A stretch of 64,000 nt of DNA. Source: Rubrivivax sp. GTDB taxonomy: Bacteria; Pseudomonadota; Gammaproteobacteria; Burkholderiales; Burkholderiaceae_C. The number at the start of each line of letters is the position of its first letter. Within the stretch, counting starts at the first letter, position 1. The translations under genes were made by a program, and so were the position numbers. The stretch covers positions 1 through 64,000 of the forward strand of contig SEFA01000030.1 of the NCBI GenBank assembly GCA_004210455.1, read 5' to 3'. The notes beneath the pieces are model-generated. The model searched no databases. It saw only the letters and a program-made list of their open reading frames with translations, and was not told where the DNA came from. Shown here piece after piece: positions 30,151 to 38,887 of the stretch.

Positions 30151-30216
30151 CCGAAGGCACCCCGCCACGCGCCTCCCGCTCGCCATAATCGCCGGGCACG
30201 ATGGAGGAGCGAGTTG

Positions 30217-31788
30217 ATGACGATGCGTCCCGGGGCAAGCCCTGCCCCCCGAGCCCGGCCGTTCCGCGCCCGGCCCCCGATGGCGACGGTCGCCGCCTTC
30301 GCGGTGTTGGCCGTGACGGCCGCGTTCTCCGGCGGCGCCTGGGCCGCGACCGAGGTGTCCCCGCAGCCGCTGCAGCCGTGCCGCGTGGAGGGCGTCGCCA
30401 CCGAGGTGTTGTGCGGCAGCATCCAACGTCCACTGGATCCCGCCCGACCTGACGGCGTCCGCATCGACGTGCGCTACGTCGTGGTGCCCGCGCTGGCGCG
30501 CAACAAGCTTCCGGACCCGGTCCTGCTGCTTGCCGGCGGTCCCGGGCAGAGCGCCATCGCCCTGACGGCCAGCGTGATGCCGCGGCTGTCCCGCTTGAAC
30601 TATCGCCGCGACCTGGTGTTCATCGATCAGCGCGGCACGGGACGCTCGGCGCCGCTGGCCTGCCCGGACAACGACAGTCGCAGCCTCGACGAACTGCTCA
30701 AACCCGGCGCCAAGGTCCGGCTGCTGGAACAGTGTCGCGACGCGCTGAAGCAGTTGCCCTACGGCGACCTGCGCTTCTTCACGACGACGATCGCCATGCA
30801 GGACATGGACGCCGTCCGTGCTGCGCTCCGGGTCGAGCGCTGGAACCTCGTCGGCGCGTCCTACGGCACGCGCGCGGCGCTTGAATATCAGCGGCAGTTC
30901 CCCGATCGCGTGCGACGCAGCGTCATCGACGGCGTCGCGCCGCCCGACATGGTGCTGCCGGTGACGTTCTCTCAGGATTCGCAGCGTGCGCTGGACGCCG
31001 TGTTCGCCGCCTGTGCCGCCGATGCGGCCTGCGCCGCGCGTTTCCCGGGTCTCCAGTCCGAATGGCACGGCCTGCTCAAGAGCCTGCCGCGCAAGGTCTC
31101 GTTCACGCATCCGGTGACTGGACGTCCGGAAGAAGCCACGCTGACCCGGGAAGGCCTGCTCGGTCTGGTCCGACCTCCGCTGTATGCGCCCAGCGTGGCC
31201 GCAGCGCTGCCGGCCGCGCTGCACGAGGCGTCGTCGGGACGCTTCGACGCGCTGGCCGGTCTGGCCGGCCAGTTGGGCGGCGGCTCGCGCGCGATGCGGA
31301 TCTTCGAAGGCATGCACTTCTCCGTCGTCTGCGCCGAGGACGCGCCGCGCATCGCGGCGTCGACCGAGACGCCCTCGCCAGACTTCGGCACGCTGGACCG
31401 CGATCTCTACGCCCGTGTCTGCAGCGCCTGGCCGCGCGGCGAGGTGCAGCCGGCGTTCTACACGATGCCCCCGGCGAAGACCCCGGTCCTGCTCACCAGC
31501 GGCGGCAACGATCCCGCCACGCCGGAGCGGCACGGGCAGCGCGTCAAGGTCGCGCTGGGCGACCAGGCCCGTCACGTCGTGGTCGGTGCCGCCGGTCACG
31601 GCGTCGCGCTGACCCTACCCTGCCTGCGCGACGTGCTGTTCCGCTTCATCGACGCGCCGCGCGACGCCGATGCGCTCCAGGTGGACGCGAGTTGCGCCAA
31701 GGGCGTCCCCCGTCCGCCCGCATTCCTTCCCCCCACGCCGGCGGCCATGGCGGCCGCCGCCTCCGCCGCCCGGGAGTCCGCCCGATGA
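30217..31788 (+). CDS. Exported alpha/beta hydrolase of the TAP/proline-iminopeptidase type
   Basis: The 523-residue protein follows GGAGGAG and has an N-terminal hydrophobic export segment ending about residue 44 (FSGGAWAATEV). The alpha/beta hydrolase core shows the oxyanion loop LLAGGPGQSA, the nucleophile elbow VGASYGTRAA, the acid in TSGGNDPATP and the histidine in GAAGHGVAL. The C-terminal TAP-like domain is typical of tripeptidyl aminopeptidases. It probably hydrolyses peptides or esters in the periplasm. Its stop overlaps the ABC ATPase start (ATGA), so the three genes form an operon. Confidence 0.87.
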   Translation: MTMRPGASPAPRARPFRARPPMATVAAFAVLAVTAAFSGGAWAATEVSPQPLQPCRVEGVATEVLCGSIQRPLDPARPDGVRIDVRYVVVPALARNKLPDPVLLLAGGPGQSAIALTASVMPRLSRLNYRRDLVFIDQRGTGRSAPLACPDNDSRSLDELLKPGAKVRLLEQCRDALKQLPYGDLRFFTTTIAMQDMDAVRAALRVERWNLVGASYGTRAALEYQRQFPDRVRRSVIDGVAPPDMVLPVTFSQDSQRALDAVFAACAADAACAARFPGLQSEWHGLLKSLPRKVSFTHPVTGRPEEATLTREGLLGLVRPPLYAPSVAAALPAALHEASSGRFDALAGLAGQLGGGSRAMRIFEGMHFSVVCAEDAPRIAASTETPSPDFGTLDRDLYARVCSAWPRGEVQPAFYTMPPAKTPVLLTSGGNDPATPERHGQRVKVALGDQARHVVVGAAGHGVALTLPCLRDVLFRFIDAPRDADALQVDASCAKGVPRPPAFLPPTPAAMAAAASAARESAR

Positions 31789-32594
31789 TCCGCCTGCATG
31801 CGCTCCACAAGGCCTTCCAGACGCGCGGAGGCGGCTCGCTGAGTTCGCTGTTCGGCAAGAAGGGTCAGGCCCGCACGGTCGTCGCCGTCGAGCATCTGAG
31901 CCTCGACGCGCCCAACGGCCGCATCACCGGACTGCTCGGCCCCAACGGCGCGGGGAAGACCACCTCGCTGCGGATGCTCGCCGGCCTCTTCCCACCCGAC
32001 CAGGGCAGCATCGAGGTCGACGGCCTCGACGTGCTCAGGCAGCCCCGCGCGGCGCTGGCGCGCATGGGGATCCTCGGCGACGCGCATGGCCTCTACCCGC
32101 GGCTCACGGCGCGCGAGAACATCGTCTACTTCGCGCGACTGCAGGACATGCCGATGGATGAGGCGCAGGCGCGGGCGGAGTCGCTCGCCGAGCTGCTGGA
32201 CCTGCGGGCCGTCCTCGATCGCCGCGCCGAAGGCTTCAGCCAGGGAGAGCGGATGAAGACTGCGCTGGCCCGCGCGCTCGTCCACGACCCGGCCAACATC
32301 GTGCTGGACGAGCCCACCAACGGCCTGGATGTCGTCGCCACGCGCGCGCTGCGCGAGGTGCTGCGCCATCTGCGCTCCCCCGAAGGCGGCGGCAAGTGCA
32401 TCGTCTTCTCCAGCCACATCATGCAGGAGGTGGAACAGCTCTGCGACCAGGTTGTGGTCATGTCACACGGACGCTCGGTCGCGACGGGCACCGTCGACGG
32501 CCTGCTCGCGCAGACGGGTCGCCAGCGTTTCGAGGACGCCTTCGTCGACCTCGCCTTCCCTGAAGTCGCGCCCGCGCGCCTGGAGTCCGCATGA
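31785..32594 (+). CDS. natA: ABC transporter ATP-binding protein, NatA-like
   Basis: The 269-residue ATPase has Walker A GPNGAGKTT near residues 51-59, the signature FSQGERMK near 152-159 and Walker B NIVLDEPTNGLD near 172-183. An insert before the Walker A (GGGSLSSLFGKKGQARTVVA) is typical of NatA-type proteins. It powers the ABC-2 permease encoded next, with which it overlaps by four bases. Relatives export sodium ions, drugs or peptides; the cargo here is unknown. Confidence 0.88.
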   Translation: MIRLHALHKAFQTRGGGSLSSLFGKKGQARTVVAVEHLSLDAPNGRITGLLGPNGAGKTTSLRMLAGLFPPDQGSIEVDGLDVLRQPRAALARMGILGDAHGLYPRLTARENIVYFARLQDMPMDEAQARAESLAELLDLRAVLDRRAEGFSQGERMKTALARALVHDPANIVLDEPTNGLDVVATRALREVLRHLRSPEGGGKCIVFSSHIMQEVEQLCDQVVVMSHGRSVATGTVDGLLAQTGRQRFEDAFVDLAFPEVAPARLESA

Positions 32595-33769
32595 ACGGTC
32601 CGTTCTTCAAAGCCTTCCGCACGGTCTTCGCCAAGGAGATCGTCGACGCGCTCCGCGACCGCCGCACGCTGCTGCGCCTGCTCATCCCGTCGATCCTGAT
32701 GGGGCCGCTGATGCTGGTCCTCATGTCGGGCCTGGCAGCCTCGCTGCAGGAGCGCGCGGAGCAGCGCGAGGTGCTCGTGGCGGGCATCGAGCACGCGCCG
32801 ACCCTGCGCAACTACATCGAACGCCAGACCTACACGATCAAGGCCGCGCCCGCCGACTACGAGAAGCGGCTGCGCGACTCGAAACTTGCCGACCCGGTAC
32901 TGGTCGTGCCGGCGGACTTCGAGACGCTGCTGGCCGGGGGCGAACCGGCGACGGTCGAGATCGTCAGCGACAGCGCGAACCAGCGCGCCGAAGCCGGCGT
33001 CGGGGCGCTCGGCCGACTGCTGCAGGGCTTCAGCACCGAGCGCGCGACGCTGACGCTGGCGATGCGCGGCATCGGCGCGCAGCAGCTGCGTCCGATCGAC
33101 GTCCAGGAACGCGATCTGGCCAGCATGCAGGCGCGCTCGACGCGGCTCACGCAGATGCTGCCGATGTTCATCATGATGGCCGTGCTCTACGGCGCGCTGA
33201 CCGCTGCGCTCGACAGCACCGCCGGCGAGCGCGAGCGCGGTTCGCTCGAGCCCTTGCTGGTCAATCCGGCGCCGCATTCGGCCATCGTCGCGGGCAAGTG
33301 GGCTGCCGTCCTGATGGCGGGGCTGCTGGTGGCGGTGCTCTCCAACCTCAGCTTCCTGCCCGGCCAGTGGCTGATGCGCAGCGACGCGCTGGCGGCGATG
33401 TTCCAGTTCGGATGGGGCGAGGCGCTGCGCTTCCTGCTGCTGCAGATTCCGCTCGGCGCAGGGCTCTCCGCGGTGCTGATGGCGCTGGCGATCCGCACCA
33501 AGACCTTCAAGGAAGCGCAGGCCAGCACGACGCTCGTCATCACCGCGATCGCGCTGACGCCGATGGTGGCGATCGTCAATCCGGGCGGCGAGGCCTCCTG
33601 GCACCTGTGGGTGCCGGGGCTGGGTCAGAACCAGCTCATGATGCAGGTGCTCAAGGGCGAGCCGCTGACATTCGCCAAGGTGATGCCGACAGTGATCGTC
33701 GGCGCCGCGCTCACGTTCGGCGGGCTGGCGCTGGTGGCCCGCTCGATGCGCGCGGCGGTGGCGCGATGA
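32591..33769 (+). CDS. natB: ABC-2 type permease, NatB-like
   Basis: The 392-residue membrane protein has one N-terminal helix (LLRLLIPSILMGPLMLVLMSG), a large extracytoplasmic loop of about 150 residues, then five or six C-terminal helices starting at LPMFIMMAVLYGALTAAL. The segment STAGERERGSLEPLLVNP is characteristic of the NatB/ABC-2 family. It begins inside the ATPase stop (ATGA). The operon with an exported hydrolase suggests export of a compound or ion linked to that enzyme, which remains a guess. Confidence 0.88.
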   Translation: MNGPFFKAFRTVFAKEIVDALRDRRTLLRLLIPSILMGPLMLVLMSGLAASLQERAEQREVLVAGIEHAPTLRNYIERQTYTIKAAPADYEKRLRDSKLADPVLVVPADFETLLAGGEPATVEIVSDSANQRAEAGVGALGRLLQGFSTERATLTLAMRGIGAQQLRPIDVQERDLASMQARSTRLTQMLPMFIMMAVLYGALTAALDSTAGERERGSLEPLLVNPAPHSAIVAGKWAAVLMAGLLVAVLSNLSFLPGQWLMRSDALAAMFQFGWGEALRFLLLQIPLGAGLSAVLMALAIRTKTFKEAQASTTLVITAIALTPMVAIVNPGGEASWHLWVPGLGQNQLMMQVLKGEPLTFAKVMPTVIVGAALTFGGLALVARSMRAAVAR

Positions 33770-34045: not shown

Positions 34046-34170
34046 GGCCGGGTGATCCTCGTCTCCCGTCACCAACACGCGCGTGCTCAAATGCGCGAAC
34101 TGTAAGCGGGGCAAACGCTGCACATCACACAATATTCGCGGCCACGCGTACACAATCCAAGCTGGTGTCA

Positions 34171-34199
34171 TTGTCAGAATTGTTTGGTTTGGCTATTGC
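34171..34199 (+). promoter_or_regulatory. Candidate sigma-70 promoter upstream of luxR
   Basis: TTGTCA at 34171-34176 and TATTGC at 34194-34199 are separated by 17 bases, in an AT-richer stretch than the surroundings. It lies about 205 bases before the luxR start, leaving a long leader that contains three dyads. Confidence 0.45.
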
Positions 34200-34225
34200 G
34201 GATCGGCGGTTGCTGCTTCTCCCCT

Positions 34226-34243
34226 TGACCAGAAGTGTGGTCA
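34226..34243. promoter_or_regulatory. Perfect 18-base dyad TGACCA-N6-TGGTCA in the luxR leader
   Basis: TGACCA at 34226-34231 is mirrored by TGGTCA at 34238-34243. It lies just downstream of the candidate luxR promoter, where a repressor could block transcription. Size and spacing suit a dimeric regulator. The binding protein is unknown. Confidence 0.5.
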
Positions 34244-34263
34244 CGAAGCGGTCGACTCGCCAG

Positions 34264-34279
34264 CTGTAAACCCTGTCAG
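34264..34279. promoter_or_regulatory. Lux-box-like half-conserved dyad and nearby palindrome upstream of luxR
   Basis: CTGT at 34264-34267 and TCAG at 34276-34279 flank eight bases. Twelve of 16 bases match the lux-box-like element found between luxR and the peptide gene. A perfect ten-base palindrome, GTCACGTGAC, follows at 34292-34301. Together they suggest autoregulation of luxR. Confidence 0.35.
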
Positions 34280-34403
34280 GGGCGTGAATGCGTCACGTGA
34301 CCTATGCGGCCCATGCGGGCGCGTGGCGGATCACAGACAGGCGAGCAGGTCCGCCTCAGCGACCGAAGAGGCCCACTAGGCCGGCCACGGGCCGGAGCGA
34401 TCA

Positions 34404-35117
34404 ATGCTGCAAGGCGGTTATCAATCAGTCCTGGAAGCGCGCTCACGCGATGAATTTCGCAGTGAGGTGATCCGCTTCGCGCAAAAGCTGGACTTCCAGA
34501 CGGTCTCGGCCATCACGGTCGTCGACCACACGCTGGCCGAGACCGAGTTCATCACCATCGACAACTGTCCCGACGGTTATGCGGAGGTGATGCACGCGCC
34601 GGAATTCGGCCGCCGCGATCCGGTGATGCAGCACTGCAAGCGCAACAGCATGCCGATCGTGTGGGACCGCCAGACCTACGCGCGCCACGGCGCGAGCGAC
34701 ATCTGGGAATCGCAGGCGCAATTCGGCTACAGCACCGGCATCTGCCTGGCGCTGCACTTGCCGGAGGGCCGGCATTTCGTGCTCGGCGTCGATCGCGACC
34801 AGCCGCTGCCGAGCGACTCGGGTCAACTGACGCGCATGGTCGCGGATCTGCAGCTGTTCGCCGTGCACGCGGTGGACACGGCGCTTCGCGTGCTGCTGCC
34901 CGAAGAGAAGGTCACCGAATCGCCGCGCCTCACGCCGCGCGAACTCGAATGCCTGCATTGGACGATGGAAGGCAAGACCGCCTGGGAAGTCGGCGCCATC
35001 CTCAGCATCACCGAACGTACCGCCGTCCTGCACATCAACAACGCGATGCACAAGCTGGCGTGTTCGAACAAGCACCAGGCGGTGCTCAAGGCCCTGCGGC
35101 TCGGCCTGATTCGCTGA
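34404..35117 (+). CDS. LuxR-family regulator with autoinducer-binding domain, without a LuxI partner
   Basis: The 237-residue protein starts after GGAG with six-base spacing. Residues about 15-165 form an autoinducer-binding domain; residues about 174-235 form the LuxR helix-turn-helix (LTPRELECLHWTMEGKTAWE, then GAILSITERTAVLHINNAMH). The Asp-Pro pair (72-73), the second tryptophan (Trp87) and Gly112 of the AHL pocket are kept. The positions equal to TraR Trp57 and Tyr61 appear as Tyr59 and Met63, so the ligand may not be a normal AHL. No AHL synthase is in the window. A lux-box-like site follows, then the secreted-peptide operon that it probably controls. Confidence 0.9.
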   Translation: MLQGGYQSVLEARSRDEFRSEVIRFAQKLDFQTVSAITVVDHTLAETEFITIDNCPDGYAEVMHAPEFGRRDPVMQHCKRNSMPIVWDRQTYARHGASDIWESQAQFGYSTGICLALHLPEGRHFVLGVDRDQPLPSDSGQLTRMVADLQLFAVHAVDTALRVLLPEEKVTESPRLTPRELECLHWTMEGKTAWEVGAILSITERTAVLHINNAMHKLACSNKHQAVLKALRLGLIR

Positions 35118-35144
35118 TGCTGCCTTCGGCGCCAGCTTGTAAAC

Positions 35145-35190
35145 ACTGTAAGAGCTGACAGTTATGCGGGCGTCTGCGCGCTGCTTCAAT
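35145..35190 (+). promoter_or_regulatory. Lux-box-like operator and -10 element of the peptide operon
   Basis: ACTGT at 35145-35149 and ACAGT at 35158-35162 form a dyad with eight bases between, the same CTGT-N8-ACAG geometry as the classic lux box. TTCAAT at 35185-35190 is a reasonable -10 element. A start site near 35197 would put the dyad centre near -43, the usual place for LuxR-activated promoters, and would leave a leader of about 46 bases before the peptide start. Confidence 0.6.
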
Positions 35191-35242
35191 CCGTTCCGTG
35201 CTCAACACTTTCCTGGGCACGTCACCGAATCTGGAGCCTCTC

Positions 35243-35428
35243 ATGCAAGCCCAACCGCAAAACGTCGCTGTCAACACGCAAGTCGAAGAAGGTCTGGTCG
35301 AGTTGGACCTGCAATCTCTCGTGCATGTCGGCGGCGGCGCTCCCAAGGGCACCTGGCTGGTGGGCCAATCGGTCCTCGTCGACGTGTCCGCCGCGGAAGT
35401 CGAACCCGCGCCGAAGGGCACCTGGTAA
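35243..35428 (+). CDS. Double-glycine precursor peptide with identical hexapeptide at both ends of the mature part
   Basis: The 61-residue peptide starts at an ATG with GGAG six bases upstream. The leader ends VELDLQSLVHVGGG; with cleavage after Gly32, hydrophobic residues fall at -12 (Leu21), -7 (Leu26) and -4 (Val29), as in substrates of C39 peptidase exporters. The mature 29 residues begin APKGTWLVGQSVLV and end EVEPAPKGTW, so APKGTW occupies residues 33-38 and 56-61. It has no cysteine, is short, and has net charge near -1, unlike most cationic bacteriocins. The adaptor and C39 exporter genes follow directly. A secreted signal or an unmodified bacteriocin are both possible. An in-frame GTG at 35198 is a less likely start. 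Confidence 0.75.
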   Translation: MQAQPQNVAVNTQVEEGLVELDLQSLVHVGGGAPKGTWLVGQSVLVDVSAAEVEPAPKGTW

Positions 35429-35441
35429 GCCGCTTCAACGC

Positions 35442-35461
35442 TGCGAACGGTCAGGTTCGCA
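35442..35461 (+). other. Intercistronic hairpin between the peptide and adaptor genes
   Basis: TGCGAAC pairs perfectly with GTTCGCA across the loop GGTCAG, 13 bases after the peptide stop. There is no T-run. Such hairpins often let the peptide be made in excess over its exporter by partial termination or 3'-end protection. Confidence 0.55.
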
Positions 35462-35478
35462 ACAAGGCGTAGCAAATC

Positions 35479-36726
35479 GTGGTGGCGCTGTTCCGCGCTG
35501 AGGCGCAAGCCTCGCAGCAGCAGGCCTGGCTGGGATCGGTGCAATTGCATCGGCCGACCACGTTGAAATGGCTGAGCATCCTGGCGCTGGGCGGCGTGAT
35601 CGCCGTCGGGACCTTCCTGTTCAGTACCGAATACACCCGCAAGGCCCGCGTGAACGGACTGCTGGTGCCGGAGCGGGGGGTCATGCGGCTGAGCGTGCCG
35701 CAGAGCGCCACGGTCATGGCACGACCCGTCCAGGATGGGCAGCAGGTGCGCGAAGGCGACGTGCTGTTCGTGTTGTCGCTCGACAGCGCCAACCCGACCG
35801 GCGACGGCCTGTCACGGACCTTGAAGGATCGCGAGTCATCGCTGGGCGCGGCGCAGGCACAGCAGCGGGAACTTGCGCAGAGCCAGGCGGCGTCGCTGAA
35901 AGCGCGGATCGCCACGCTCGCATCCACACTGCAGCAGGCTGATGCCGAGCTGCAGCTGCATGCCCAGCGCGAAGCGCTGGCGCAGCAGAGCCTGGGACGG
36001 CTCGAGTCGCTGGCGAAAGACCAGTTCGTCTCGAGCGCCCAGGTCCAGACCAAGCGGGAGGAGTTGCTTGGCTTGCAGGCCCAACGGCAGGCACTGGCGC
36101 GAGAGCGCGAGAACCTGCAGCGGGAGGCGTTGGGCTTGCAAGCTGAGCTTCAGGCGATCCCCTTGAAGGCGCAGGTCCGGCAGGGGGAACTCGCCCGGGA
36201 CATCGCCGCGCTGCAGGCGCAGGGCGTGGAGAACGAAGCGCGCCGCCGCCTCGTGCTGCGCGCCCCCAGCGACGGACAGATGAGCACGGTGCTCGCCGAG
36301 CCCGGACAGGTCGTGCAGGCCGGTACCCAGCTCGCCGCCCTGCTCCCCGCGCATACGCCGCTGCAGGCACATCTCTACGCCCCGTCCAGTGCCGTCGGTT
36401 TCCTGCGGCCGCATCAGGCGGTGCTGCTGCGCTATCAGGCGTTCCCGTACCAGAAATTCGGCCAGCAGCAGGGCGAGGTGCTGCAGGTCTCGCGCACACC
36501 GCTGCAGGCGGCCGAACTCGCGCAACTCGGTCTGCCCGCCGCGATGGCACAGGGCGAGCCGATGTATCGCATCACCGTGCAACTGCAGCGCCAATCGGTC
36601 GAGGCTTACGGCCAGGACCAGACGCTCAGCCCCGGTATGCTGCTCGAAGCCGACGTGCTGCTTGAGCGGCGCCGCCTGATCGAATGGATCTTCGAACCGC
36701 TGCTGAGCCTCGTACGCCGTGTCTGA
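35479..36726 (+). CDS. HlyD-type periplasmic adaptor of the peptide exporter
   Basis: The 415-residue protein must start at GTG (35479 or 35482), because an in-frame TAG lies six bases upstream. One membrane helix spans about residues 31-49 (WLSILALGGVIAVGTFLF). A lipoyl-like half (VMARPVQDGQQVREGDVLFV) and a long Gln/Ala/Leu-rich coiled coil (about 105-245) follow, then the second lipoyl half (RAPSDGQMSTVLAEPGQVVQ) and a beta-barrel domain. It would link the inner-membrane exporter to an outer-membrane channel such as TolC, which is not encoded here. It overlaps the exporter gene by eight bases. Confidence 0.9.
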   Translation: MVALFRAEAQASQQQAWLGSVQLHRPTTLKWLSILALGGVIAVGTFLFSTEYTRKARVNGLLVPERGVMRLSVPQSATVMARPVQDGQQVREGDVLFVLSLDSANPTGDGLSRTLKDRESSLGAAQAQQRELAQSQAASLKARIATLASTLQQADAELQLHAQREALAQQSLGRLESLAKDQFVSSAQVQTKREELLGLQAQRQALARERENLQREALGLQAELQAIPLKAQVRQGELARDIAALQAQGVENEARRRLVLRAPSDGQMSTVLAEPGQVVQAGTQLAALLPAHTPLQAHLYAPSSAVGFLRPHQAVLLRYQAFPYQKFGQQQGEVLQVSRTPLQAAELAQLGLPAAMAQGEPMYRITVQLQRQSVEAYGQDQTLSPGMLLEADVLLERRRLIEWIFEPLLSLVRRV

Positions 36727-38887
36727 CGCCCCTTCTTCCGGCGCTCCCGCCGTGAGCGCCCCGTCGGCCGGGGTGCTGTCCCGGTTGAACCTCGGCTGGC
36801 GTCGTCGCCGACCCGTCATCCTGCAGACGGAGGCCGCCGAATGCGGCCTTGCCTGCCTGGCCATGGTGGCAGGCGCCCATGGACAACGCTGGACGCTCGG
36901 CGAGCTGCGCGACCGGTTCGCGGTCTCGCTCAAGGGTCTGACGATGGCCGACCTGGTGCGCATGGGCGCGCAGCTCGGGCTCACCGCCCGCGCGCTGCGC
37001 GCCGAGCCGCATACGCTGCACAAGCTGCAGACGCCCTGCATCCTGCACTGGGACTTCAACCACTTCGTCGTGCTGGAGCGTGTCGACGGCGATCGGGCGT
37101 TAATCCTCGATCCCGCGCATGGCGAACGCCGGCTCGCGCTGGACGAGGTCTCCAAGCACTTCACCGGCGTCGCCCTCGAGCTGCGACCAGGGATGGACTT
37201 CGCCCGCAAGGCGCCCGCGCCAGCTCCGAAATGGCGTCAGCTGCTCGGACATGTGACGGGGCTGAAGCGCTCGATCGCGCAAGTCCTGGCCCTCGCGCTG
37301 GGGCTGGAACTGCTCGGGCTGCTGGCGCCATTCCTGCTGCAGTGGACCGTCGACGGCGTCATCGTCAGCGCCGACCGCGACCTGCTGGTGACGCTGGGCA
37401 TCGGCTTCGCGCTGCTGGTGCTGCTGCAGGTGGGCGTCGGTCTGCTGCGATCCTGGGCGGTGATGATCCTGTCCGCGTCGCTGAACCTGCAATGGCTCTC
37501 CAACGTCTTCTCACACCTGCTGCGGCTGCCGCTCGCATGGTTCGAGAAACGGCATCTCGGCGACATCTGGTCGCGCTTCTCCAGCGTGCAGGAGATCCAG
37601 AAGACGCTGACGGGCAGCTTCATCGAAGCCATCCTCGACGGCCTGATGGTGCTGCTGACGCTGGCGATGATGGTGCTCTACAGCGGCCGTCTGACGACGG
37701 TCGCGCTGGCCGCGGTGGCAGGCTATGCGCTGCTGCGCTGGGCCTGCTTCCGGCCGCTGCGCGACGCGCAGGAAGAGGCGTTGACCCACGAGGCGAGGCA
37801 GAACACCCACTTCCTGGAATCGCTGCGCGGCGCGCAGGCGATCAAGCTCTTCAACGCGCAGGCGGACCGCGGCGCGCGCTTCGCCAACCTCATCGTCGAG
37901 CAGATGAACGCGTCGCTGACGGGCCGCAAGCTCGAGCTGGGCATGACGCAGGGCAACAAGCTGCTGTTCGGCCTGGAGCGCGTGGTCATCGTCGCGATGG
38001 GCGCGATGCTGGTGCTGGACAACGCGCTGTCGGTCGGCATGCTGTTTGCGTTCCTCGCCTACAAGGACCAGTTCAGCCAACGCATCGCGGGGCTGATCGA
38101 CAAGGTGGTCGCGCTGAAGATGCTCCGCCTGCAGGGCGAGCGGCTGGCCGACATCGTCCTGACCGCGCCCGAGGCGGAGTTCGATGCCCCTGGCCGAGCG
38201 GTACCGCCAGACGCGGCGCTGGAGCTCGATGGCCTGCGTTTCCGCTATGCCGACGGCGAGCCCGAGGTCATCGCCGGCTGTTCGCTGCGCATCGAGCCGG
38301 GAGAGTCGGTCGCGATCGTCGGTCCCTCGGGCTGCGGCAAGACGACGTTGATGAAGCTGATGCTCGGCATCCATGCGCCGCAGCACGGGGAGATCCGCAT
38401 CGGCGGCGTCGCCCTGCCGCAACTGGGCGCCAACGCCTGGCGCGAGCGCATCGGCACGGTGATGCAGGACGACCAGCTCTTCGCCGGAAGCATCGCCGAC
38501 AACATCAGCTTCTTCGACCTGGACGTCGATCCTGACTGGGTCCGCGAGTGCGCACGCCTGGCCTGCGTGCTCGAGGACATCGAGGCCATGCCCATGCGCC
38601 TGCAGACGCTTATCGGCGACATGGGCTCCAGCCTCTCCGGCGGGCAACGCCAGCGCATCCTGCTGGCGCGCGCGCTGTACAAACGGCCGAGCTTCCTCTT
38701 CCTGGACGAGGCGACCAGCGCGCTCGACGTGGAGCGCGAACGGCTGGTCAATGCGAGCCTACGCCAGCTCCCGCTGACGAGGATCGTCATCGCGCACCGC
38801 CCGGAAACCATCGCGGCGGCGCAGCGCGTCGTCAGCCTGCAGGGCGGGCGCGTGGTGCAGGACCTGCGATCGGTCCAGCACCGTTGA
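36719..38887 (+). CDS. Peptidase-containing ABC exporter (C39 peptidase, membrane domain, ATPase)
   Basis: The 722-residue protein starts at a GTG inside the adaptor gene. The N-terminal C39 peptidase has the oxyanion Gln36 and a full triad: Cys42 in AAECGLACLAM, His115 in FNHFVVLE and Asp131 in ILDPAHGER. The membrane domain covers about 180-465. The ATPase has Walker A GPSGCGKT (535-542), LSGGQ (639-643) and Walker B FLFLDE (Asp663-Glu664). It should cut the leader after the double glycine and export the peptide. It is the last gene of the operon. Confidence 0.95.
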   Translation: MSDAPSSGAPAVSAPSAGVLSRLNLGWRRRRPVILQTEAAECGLACLAMVAGAHGQRWTLGELRDRFAVSLKGLTMADLVRMGAQLGLTARALRAEPHTLHKLQTPCILHWDFNHFVVLERVDGDRALILDPAHGERRLALDEVSKHFTGVALELRPGMDFARKAPAPAPKWRQLLGHVTGLKRSIAQVLALALGLELLGLLAPFLLQWTVDGVIVSADRDLLVTLGIGFALLVLLQVGVGLLRSWAVMILSASLNLQWLSNVFSHLLRLPLAWFEKRHLGDIWSRFSSVQEIQKTLTGSFIEAILDGLMVLLTLAMMVLYSGRLTTVALAAVAGYALLRWACFRPLRDAQEEALTHEARQNTHFLESLRGAQAIKLFNAQADRGARFANLIVEQMNASLTGRKLELGMTQGNKLLFGLERVVIVAMGAMLVLDNALSVGMLFAFLAYKDQFSQRIAGLIDKVVALKMLRLQGERLADIVLTAPEAEFDAPGRAVPPDAALELDGLRFRYADGEPEVIAGCSLRIEPGESVAIVGPSGCGKTTLMKLMLGIHAPQHGEIRIGGVALPQLGANAWRERIGTVMQDDQLFAGSIADNISFFDLDVDPDWVRECARLACVLEDIEAMPMRLQTLIGDMGSSLSGGQRQRILLARALYKRPSFLFLDEATSALDVERERLVNASLRQLPLTRIVIAHRPETIAAAQRVVSLQGGRVVQDLRSVQHR

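Follow-up and report, generated by a model that had tools for sequence, protein, structure and literature searches.

Textbooks present LuxR proteins as receptors for small diffusible molecules and assign peptide pheromones to the Gram-positive bacteria. What, then, does a LuxR protein sense when the gene behind its own encodes a small peptide with a double-glycine leader? The question is raised by positions 34046 to 38887 of a 64,000-nucleotide stretch of Rubrivivax sp. DNA (contig SEFA01000030.1; the whole stretch is here called the window), where four genes follow each other on the + strand in one direction: a luxR solo, a gene for a double-glycine peptide of 61 amino acids (aa), hlyD and a C39 exporter gene. 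The answer proposed here, to which we assign a probability of about 70%, is that they constitute a LuxR-type peptide-pheromone system with positive feedback, in which the peptide is the ligand of the paired LuxR protein. The features of the locus are the following.

34263..34280, + strand: second lux-box-like site (GCTGTAAACCCTGTCAGG) upstream of luxR, by box score
34404..35117, + strand: luxR solo, 237 aa, with autoinducer-binding and GerE DNA-binding domains and with orthologues; proposed peptide receptor
35145..35162, + strand: lux box ACTGTAAGAGCTGACAGT between luxR and the peptide gene, by box score
35182..35190, + strand: extended -10 (TGCTTCAAT), by its fixed spacing from the lux box
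35243..35428, + strand: peptide precursor, 61 aa, with double-glycine leader and a predicted mature part of 29-30 aa
35339..35356, + strand: core copy 1, APKGTW, directly after the glycine motif, from sequence
35408..35425, + strand: core copy 2, APKGTW, at the C terminus of the precursor, from sequence
35479..36726, + strand: HlyD-type periplasmic adaptor, by domain matches
36719..38887, + strand: peptidase C39-containing ABC exporter, by domain matches (PF03412, E 1.6e-35)

Coordinates and domains agree with the original prediction, made from the letters of the window, of these four genes in one direction. The LuxR protein matches Autoind_bind (PF03472, E 4.3e-23) and GerE (PF00196, E 6e-15), and the hlyD and C39 genes share an 8-bp overlap. 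The stretch from 34046 begins 358 bp upstream of the luxR start, and the second lux-box-like site is the only feature identified in that interval. The absence of a LuxI-like synthase, also claimed at the outset, holds for the whole 6.3-Mb genome of the window, where PF00765 has no match at E <= 1.

The precursor has no Pfam or NCBIfam family match. Its leader ends in ...LVHVGG and is followed by (G)APKGTW-linker-APKGTW, with the identical hexapeptide at both ends of the mature part, a repeat that is absent from the original prediction. That prediction took a 29-residue product as the unit; the length stands, with 29-30 aa predicted, while the unit that is conserved is a PxxxW hexapeptide, often repeated.

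Pairing of luxR with a peptide gene and a promoter

The pairing was followed in 80 related loci, the best 80 of 137 found when an alignment of nine LuxR proteins was run against a genome collection. They come mostly from genera of the Burkholderiales (Roseateles, Mitsuaria, Paucibacter, Rubrivivax, Rhizobacter, Methylibium and others); a few records give no more than Pseudomonadota, Proteobacteria or beta proteobacterium as their name, and a metagenome-assembled genome of Vitreoscilla is also among them. The nearest named LuxR proteins, at 99%, are those of Roseateles noduli and R. chitinivorans, a genus placed in the Sphaerotilaceae, in a list that may omit records of the window genome itself. 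One sequence (L084) ends 137 bp after luxR, which leaves 79 loci in which a peptide can be assessed.

By inspection, all 79 have a small frame with the core x-P-x-x-x-W that ends within about 440 bp downstream of luxR. The Trp is the last residue in 71 of the 79 precursors and is followed by one to three residues in seven (L053, L054, L061, L063, L071, L095, L105), while the core of L102 is one residue longer (PxxxxW). When frames ending in PxxxW-stop are counted within 700 bp of luxR, they occur in 75 of the 80 loci, compared with 86 of 2962 control windows; four of the 75 are incidental frames (L053, L054, L061, L063), at loci that do carry a double-glycine PxxxW peptide. The pairing of luxR with the peptide exceeds chance.

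A peptide carries from one to seven copies of the core, and in 39 of 44 multi-copy peptides, as parsed, the copies are identical. To exemplify, there are five GPNGGW units in L083, seven GPRGTW units without a double-glycine leader in L068 and, by eye, two TPKGTW copies in L038 and five PRGG[GS]W copies in L102. The double-glycine leader is present in 70 of the 79 peptides as parsed, and the predicted mature part is 7-11 aa long in 24 of these 70 (corrected from 25, for L038). The shortest have 7-9 aa, and examples of short predicted forms are GG-SPKGTWASPKGTW (L099), GG-ALPKFAW (L073), GG-TSLPAKTW (L070) and GG-LPKGGWDRK (L063). At eight loci (L056, L058, L059, L076, L100, L110, L209, L219) the same core ends very short leaderless peptides of about 18-31 aa. 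A cyclophane reading, as a ribosomally synthesized and post-translationally modified peptide, was rejected: the XyeA match in one relative (E 0.04) lies below the family cut-off.

Both exporter genes, hlyD and C39, are local in 59 of the 79 loci and C39 alone in one (L067); all 60 have double-glycine leaders. The gene order expected from the original prediction is therefore general in its first half, luxR with the peptide (79/79), and partial in its second (59/79, and none of the nine leaderless loci as parsed), and the peptide is kept at all 59 loci that keep both exporter genes, the opposite of the loss that the original prediction named as its refutation. The Cys, His and Asp columns of the C39 peptidase region are invariant in 52 of 52 aligned relatives. 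In nine double-glycine loci, at least 4 kb of examined sequence holds no exporter, and L094, the tenth such locus without one, offers only 642 bp behind luxR; each of these ten genomes encodes a related C39-ABC protein somewhere (E <= 1e-60), as do the genomes of the leaderless loci L068 and L081 at the same cut-off. At two loci with a four-copy peptide and no full local exporter, a lone C39-like domain follows the peptide (L082, 9094-9519; L085, 9057-9527), with weak Pfam matches (E 1.6e-4 and 7.1e-6, respectively).

The spacer between luxR and the peptide gene contains a lux box with the consensus CTGTAAGAGYTGACAGT, which within 110 bp scores at least 8 of 10 in 77 of the 80 loci; 11 of 1325 control windows reach a score of 8 and none of them 9. 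When 75 loci are aligned on the box, an extended -10, TGnTnnAAT, appears at a fixed spacing, with T, A, A and T conserved at 0.99 or more and the TG at 0.95 and 0.97. A generic promoter scan, which demands a -35 hexamer, gave no sigma-70 match at the extended -10 of the window. The distance from the centre of the lux box to the expected transcription start is about 42-44 bp, the usual site for a LuxR-type activator. The second site, upstream of luxR, scores at least 12 of 16 in 78 of the 80 loci, compared with 1 of 628 control windows.

Whether other genes share the box was considered in two ways. Candidate regulon sites in the window genome (up to three mismatches) were dropped because the lux box is no commoner there than its reversed control (34 sites against 40). 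With at most one mismatch in 28 related genomes, 38 lux-box sites stand against 4 control sites; they are present in 26 of the 28 genomes, and some lie away from luxR. Extra boxes recur at matching places in the genome pairs L172/L174, L168/L169 and L149/L150 (box at 1501 after turning), with, by Pfam and one per pair, an M9 peptidase of the collagenase type, an M28 peptidase and a Y-family DNA polymerase of the dinB type behind them. Secreted peptidases are classic targets of quorum sensing, and the genes behind the extra boxes are possible regulon members.

A wider sample was drawn from the GTDB family, where a profile of 56 LuxR proteins matches 102 of 399 genomes at E <= 1e-50. The family loci examined were 28 from the profile search, L144 and 60 stretches fetched by position; the counts leave out three matches (G043, G171, G789:C138). 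Many of the genomes belong to the same species as the named set. Of the LuxR genes examined, 78 reach 340 bits or more and have at least 400 bp of downstream sequence; behind 69 of them comes a PxxxW peptide in which the Trp is the last residue or precedes up to three more, and 34 of these 69 pairs differ from the named set by at least 5%; a lux box lies near 74 of the 78. Five of the nine exceptions have a recognisable variant of the peptide: in L251 the core follows the GG and continues in a long tail, L252 and L254 have GG-LPRVGGW, and L191 and L200 have GG-LPRVGGL. The other four are L195, with neither lux box nor peptide, and three extra LuxR genes without a box (L205, L207, L210). LPRVGGW, LPRVGGL and the PRGGSW of L102 are variant cores with one extra residue, outside the PxxxW rule. 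Six further high-scoring matches (L002, L003, L005, L007, L010, L011) each have a double-glycine core peptide.

Among 24 lower-scoring LuxR genes of 200-340 bits, L263 alone has both the box and a double-glycine PxxxW peptide, and the PxxxW frames of L213 and L220 look like chance. Two distant LuxR genes (237 bits) have PxxxW frames and no lux box, L222 with a double-glycine leader and the end GPLPGW and L221 with DLPRGGWLC; these are perhaps further pairs under different control. At the level of the order, a single query with a strict cut-off matched 3 of 399 genomes, and the one among these matches with 38% identity has no peptide. Five genomes carry three to five LuxR paralogues in a run (L204 in G096, L205 in G197, L206 in G212, L207 in G790, L208 in G066), with lux box and peptide beside only one of them; the other paralogues might be eavesdropping or spare receptors.

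Core of the peptide and pocket of LuxR

An AlphaFold2 model of the window LuxR protein (mean predicted local distance difference test, pLDDT, 87.9) has its best fold matches in SdiA, QscR and RhlR and is also similar to LasR. The polar contacts of LasR with its acyl-homoserine lactone (AHL) are given, in the accessible part of PMC9654057, as Tyr56, Trp60, Asp73 and Ser129. In the 80 related proteins, most of these are lost: the Tyr56 equivalent is absent in all 80, Trp60 remains Trp in 5 and is otherwise Tyr or Phe, and Ser129 has become Gly in 79 and Ala in 1. The mapping to LasR is approximate for positions 36-52. LuxI was found in 7 of 50 related genomes tested from among the 80, which means that the search is able to detect it and that, for 43 of the 50 LuxR proteins, the available genome sequence shows no LuxI.

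Covariation between core and LuxR columns was calculated over 70 non-redundant pairs out of 80 (78 loci, L144 and the window), with overall distance removed. The core table omits L084, which meets a contig end, and L102, whose core is longer; when copies differed, the last was used, except in L047, where it was the first. The strongest links join x3, the residue before the Trp, to LuxR position 69, followed by x1 with 59, x0 with 114 and 115, x1 with 68 and x0 with 63. By alignment, LuxR 69, 59, 114 and 63 are A70, W60, T115 and Y64 of LasR, and 115 and 68 adjoin such positions; all four LasR residues are among the ligand contacts in the part of PMC9654057 referred to above.

All 29 pairs with Thr at x3 have Gly69, and none of the 30 with Gly at x3 does; position 69 is there occupied by Met (11 pairs), Trp (8), His (3), Tyr (3), Ala (2), Phe, Gln or Ile. 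In the 11 other pairs, Asn, Val or Tyr at x3 (4 pairs) goes with Gly69, and Ser, Ala or Arg (7 pairs) with Asn, Ser, Cys or Ala. Side-chain volumes at the two positions are anticorrelated (rho -0.85; the next of 136 columns has -0.34). On a quick tree built with the covarying columns left out, x3 changes between Gly and other residues 16 times and position 69 changes 18 times; in 11 cases the two changes share a branch, each time with the direction expected, and the next best of 95 columns has 6.

Within LuxR, z exceeds 4 in 17 of 500 tests in the ligand domain and in none of 148 in the DNA-binding domain, and pocket positions make up 7 of the 12 top ligand-domain columns, compared with 17 of 125 overall (hypergeometric 1.3e-4). 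On the same 52 loci, z exceeds 6 in 7 of 628 tests for LuxR (maximum 11.9), in 2 of 1396 for HlyD (9.2) and in 2 of 1876 for C39 (6.9). There is thus a background of covariation, but LuxR stands out against both exporter proteins.

A new set of 34 pairs, none of which exceeds 95% identity to the first set or to another new pair, gives the same picture in its main lines. Gly at x3 goes with a residue other than Gly at 69 in 22 of 22, the four receptors with Gly69 are all paired with Thr at x3, and of 101 columns number 69 again ranks first (rho -0.64).

Weighing the readings

A lux box stands before the peptide gene in nearly all relatives and the pocket changes with a residue of the peptide; from this follows that the LuxR protein is most simply read as the receptor of the peptide. 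In the mechanism proposed, LuxR would bind a short ribosomal peptide with the core x-P-x-x-x-W (APKGTW in the window) in the pocket that other LuxR proteins use for AHLs. Cleavage of the precursor would occur behind the double glycine, the C39-ABC/HlyD pair would carry out the export, and the ligand, either the trimmed core or a longer form that contains it, would return to the cytoplasm. There it would bind LuxR, which would activate the promoter of the peptide and exporter genes through the lux box, in a positive feedback that resembles LuxI/LuxR with a gene-encoded signal and that would make expression depend on cell density. Joint changes of core and pocket would give different specificities in different species. 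It is probable, likewise, that this clade of Burkholderiales uses gene-encoded xPxxxW hexapeptide pheromones and reads them with LuxR proteins in which a pocket for lactones has been converted to one for peptides. The activation and possible sensing of a peptide signal by LuxR was one of two models in the original prediction, and it gains support from the conserved box and -10 and from the covariation, with activation itself the likely rather than the observed sense of control.

Several observations weigh against the proposal. Shared ancestry inflates the covariation scores, since columns of HlyD and C39 also score high. Outside Gly and Thr at x3, the size trend comprises only 11 pairs (rho -0.57, p 0.07), and when only well-supported branches are counted there are 5 independent pairs for Gly at x3 (median sign test p 0.06), 6 for Thr at x3 (0.03) and 7 for x1 (0.03). 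In the new set, 7 of 22 receptors paired with Gly at x3 carry a small Ala, Ser or Cys at 69, 3 of 7 paired with Thr have Ser or Ala there, and the link of x1 with 59 is weaker, Lys at x1 going with Phe in 4, Tyr in 5 and another residue or a gap in 2. The equivalents of LasR Asp73, Trp88 and Tyr93 are kept in 79, 80 and 80 of the 80 proteins, and sequence on its own therefore leaves room for a small-molecule ligand. No importer gene is encoded at the window locus, and seven genomes with leaderless peptides, of unstated completeness, have no exporter match at E <= 1e-60 (L102 and the six named first among the very short leaderless loci, L056, L058, L059, L076, L100 and L110). In AlphaFold2 models of read-through LuxR-peptide chains the core was not placed (block-mean pLDDT 33-39), a result that is listed on this side and that neither supports nor refutes binding.

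The leaderless peptides suit a different loop, in which LuxR binds the unexported precursor or peptide inside the producing cell, with export and cleavage as a timer or off-switch and with no signal between cells. The core lies at the extreme C terminus of 71 of the 79 precursors, peptides of 18-20 aa with the same core occur in six of the genomes just named, and the import step for which the window locus has no gene would not be needed. Against such a loop stand the two exporter genes co-encoded in 59 of 79 loci; cores directly after the GG and tandem copies would be best explained by processing and release, and varied cores would be typical of signals between cells. The exporter favours action between cells; the leaderless peptides, and the fact that no importer is encoded locally, give the private loop some room, and we regard it as unlikely, and as the strongest competitor of the pheromone system.

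Far less credit is due to the idea that LuxR senses an AHL or another small molecule, the peptide being an effector product and the pocket covariation a by-product of shared ancestry. The kept Asp73, Trp88 and Tyr93 equivalents, the covariation with HlyD and C39 and the LuxI genes in 7 of 50 related genomes would all fit, but Tyr56 and Ser129 are absent in 80 of 80 proteins and Trp60 in 75, and the link of x3 with 69 arises repeatedly on the tree, matches by size and largely holds in new data. Just as improbable is the second model of the original prediction, a LuxR-controlled unmodified bacteriocin or microcin with its immunity gene elsewhere: the double-glycine leader and the C39-ABC/HlyD domains of the window are the usual class II microcin export route, but predicted products down to 7-9 aa, repeated hexapeptides, leaderless versions and the lack of an identified immunity gene in the operon argue against it, and for a killing peptide, covariation with its regulator's ligand pocket would come as a surprise.

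That no immunity gene is to be seen was noted from the start and is confirmed: none was identified between the four genes or in the adjoining ones, an ABC-2 membrane protein gene and a TctC-family gene on the other strand, in a search that covered the operon and its neighbours and not remote sites. Upstream of luxR (30214-33769) lie ABC-2 type transporter genes and a TAP-like alpha/beta hydrolase gene; downstream, the TctC-family gene, on the opposite strand, is followed by mnmG. In loci with room, the ABC-2 pair is conserved in 59 of 70, the hydrolase in 51 of 61 and mnmG in 51 of 67. Peptide processing is a possible role of hydrolase and ABC-2 neighbours, and plain synteny is equally so. The kept synteny with the ABC-2 pair and mnmG places the locus in the core chromosome, and a mobile origin was rejected on this ground and for lack of any match in plasmids or viral contigs.

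Comparison with known systems

In the open literature of PubMed Central, titles and beginnings of abstracts revealed no pair of a LuxR protein with a gene-encoded peptide, in a search whose scope ended short of preprints and most subscription journals; as text, the core strings occurred there in one unrelated paper only. Roseateles, Rubrivivax, HlyD and bacteriocin do not appear in the accessible part of a review of LuxR solos from 2023 (PMC10134790).

The fold, with its autoinducer-binding and GerE domains, and the lux box before the signal gene are shared with LuxI/LuxR systems that work with AHLs (LasR, QscR, SdiA, TraR). The differences are that the window genome has no LuxI match, that the paired gene encodes a peptide and that LasR Tyr56, Ser129 and mostly Trp60 are not kept.

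The nearest precedent is the plant-responsive group PipR/OryR, LuxR solos with a peptide response that, in the parts of PMC4981722 and PMC10134790 at hand, are described as uninfluenced by AHLs. A PipR reporter responds to Ser-His-Ser from about 1 mM upwards, with an ABC transporter being required (PMC4981722, same part), and the ligand is external, an ethanolamine derivative from the plant, HEHEAA (PMC10134790, same part). The ligand is thus exogenous; those parts describe no cognate peptide gene, and the flanking genes are an importer and peptidases, not a C39 exporter. A test of the flanks, in which the synteny of relatives was also compared, found no proline iminopeptidase or peptide importer beside the window luxR.

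Receptors of the RRNPP systems of Firmicutes carry TPR repeats, whereas the receptor here is a LuxR protein, with Autoind_bind and GerE as its only Pfam domains, and the hosts are Gram-negative. The likeness lies in the two-gene logic, a receptor gene with a short propeptide gene next to it (here in 79 of 79 assessable loci), as outlined in the part of PMC10075063 available. Double-glycine/C39 systems, represented by the Rgg-regulated Rtg locus (PMC7018657) and the class II microcins (PMC9746304), both taken from partial texts, share the leader and the peptidase-containing ABC exporter, and Gram-negative type I secretion shares the HlyD adaptor of the window locus; they differ in that the regulator here is a LuxR protein, the product a short and often repeated PxxxW peptide, and no immunity gene is identified.

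As far as it can be read from sequence, the joint change of luxR and peptide suggests a so far undescribed form of peptide-based signalling in Gram-negative bacteria. If this is true, quorum sensing gains a new class with dozens of pherotypes, and the size match between x3 and LuxR 69 sets part of their specificity. It would assign cognate ligands to a set of LuxR solos that so far have none, and both research and circuit engineering could draw on many natural pairs of signal and receptor. Part of the code can be read already (Thr with Gly, Gly with non-Gly), which makes the proposal directly testable with cheap synthetic hexapeptides. The system could be regarded as distinct from LuxI/LuxR in the class, synthesis and release of its signal or, in a stricter view, as a variant form of LuxR signalling; in either case, the worlds of LuxR and of the peptide pheromones would meet in a LuxR protein that has a gene-encoded peptide of its own.

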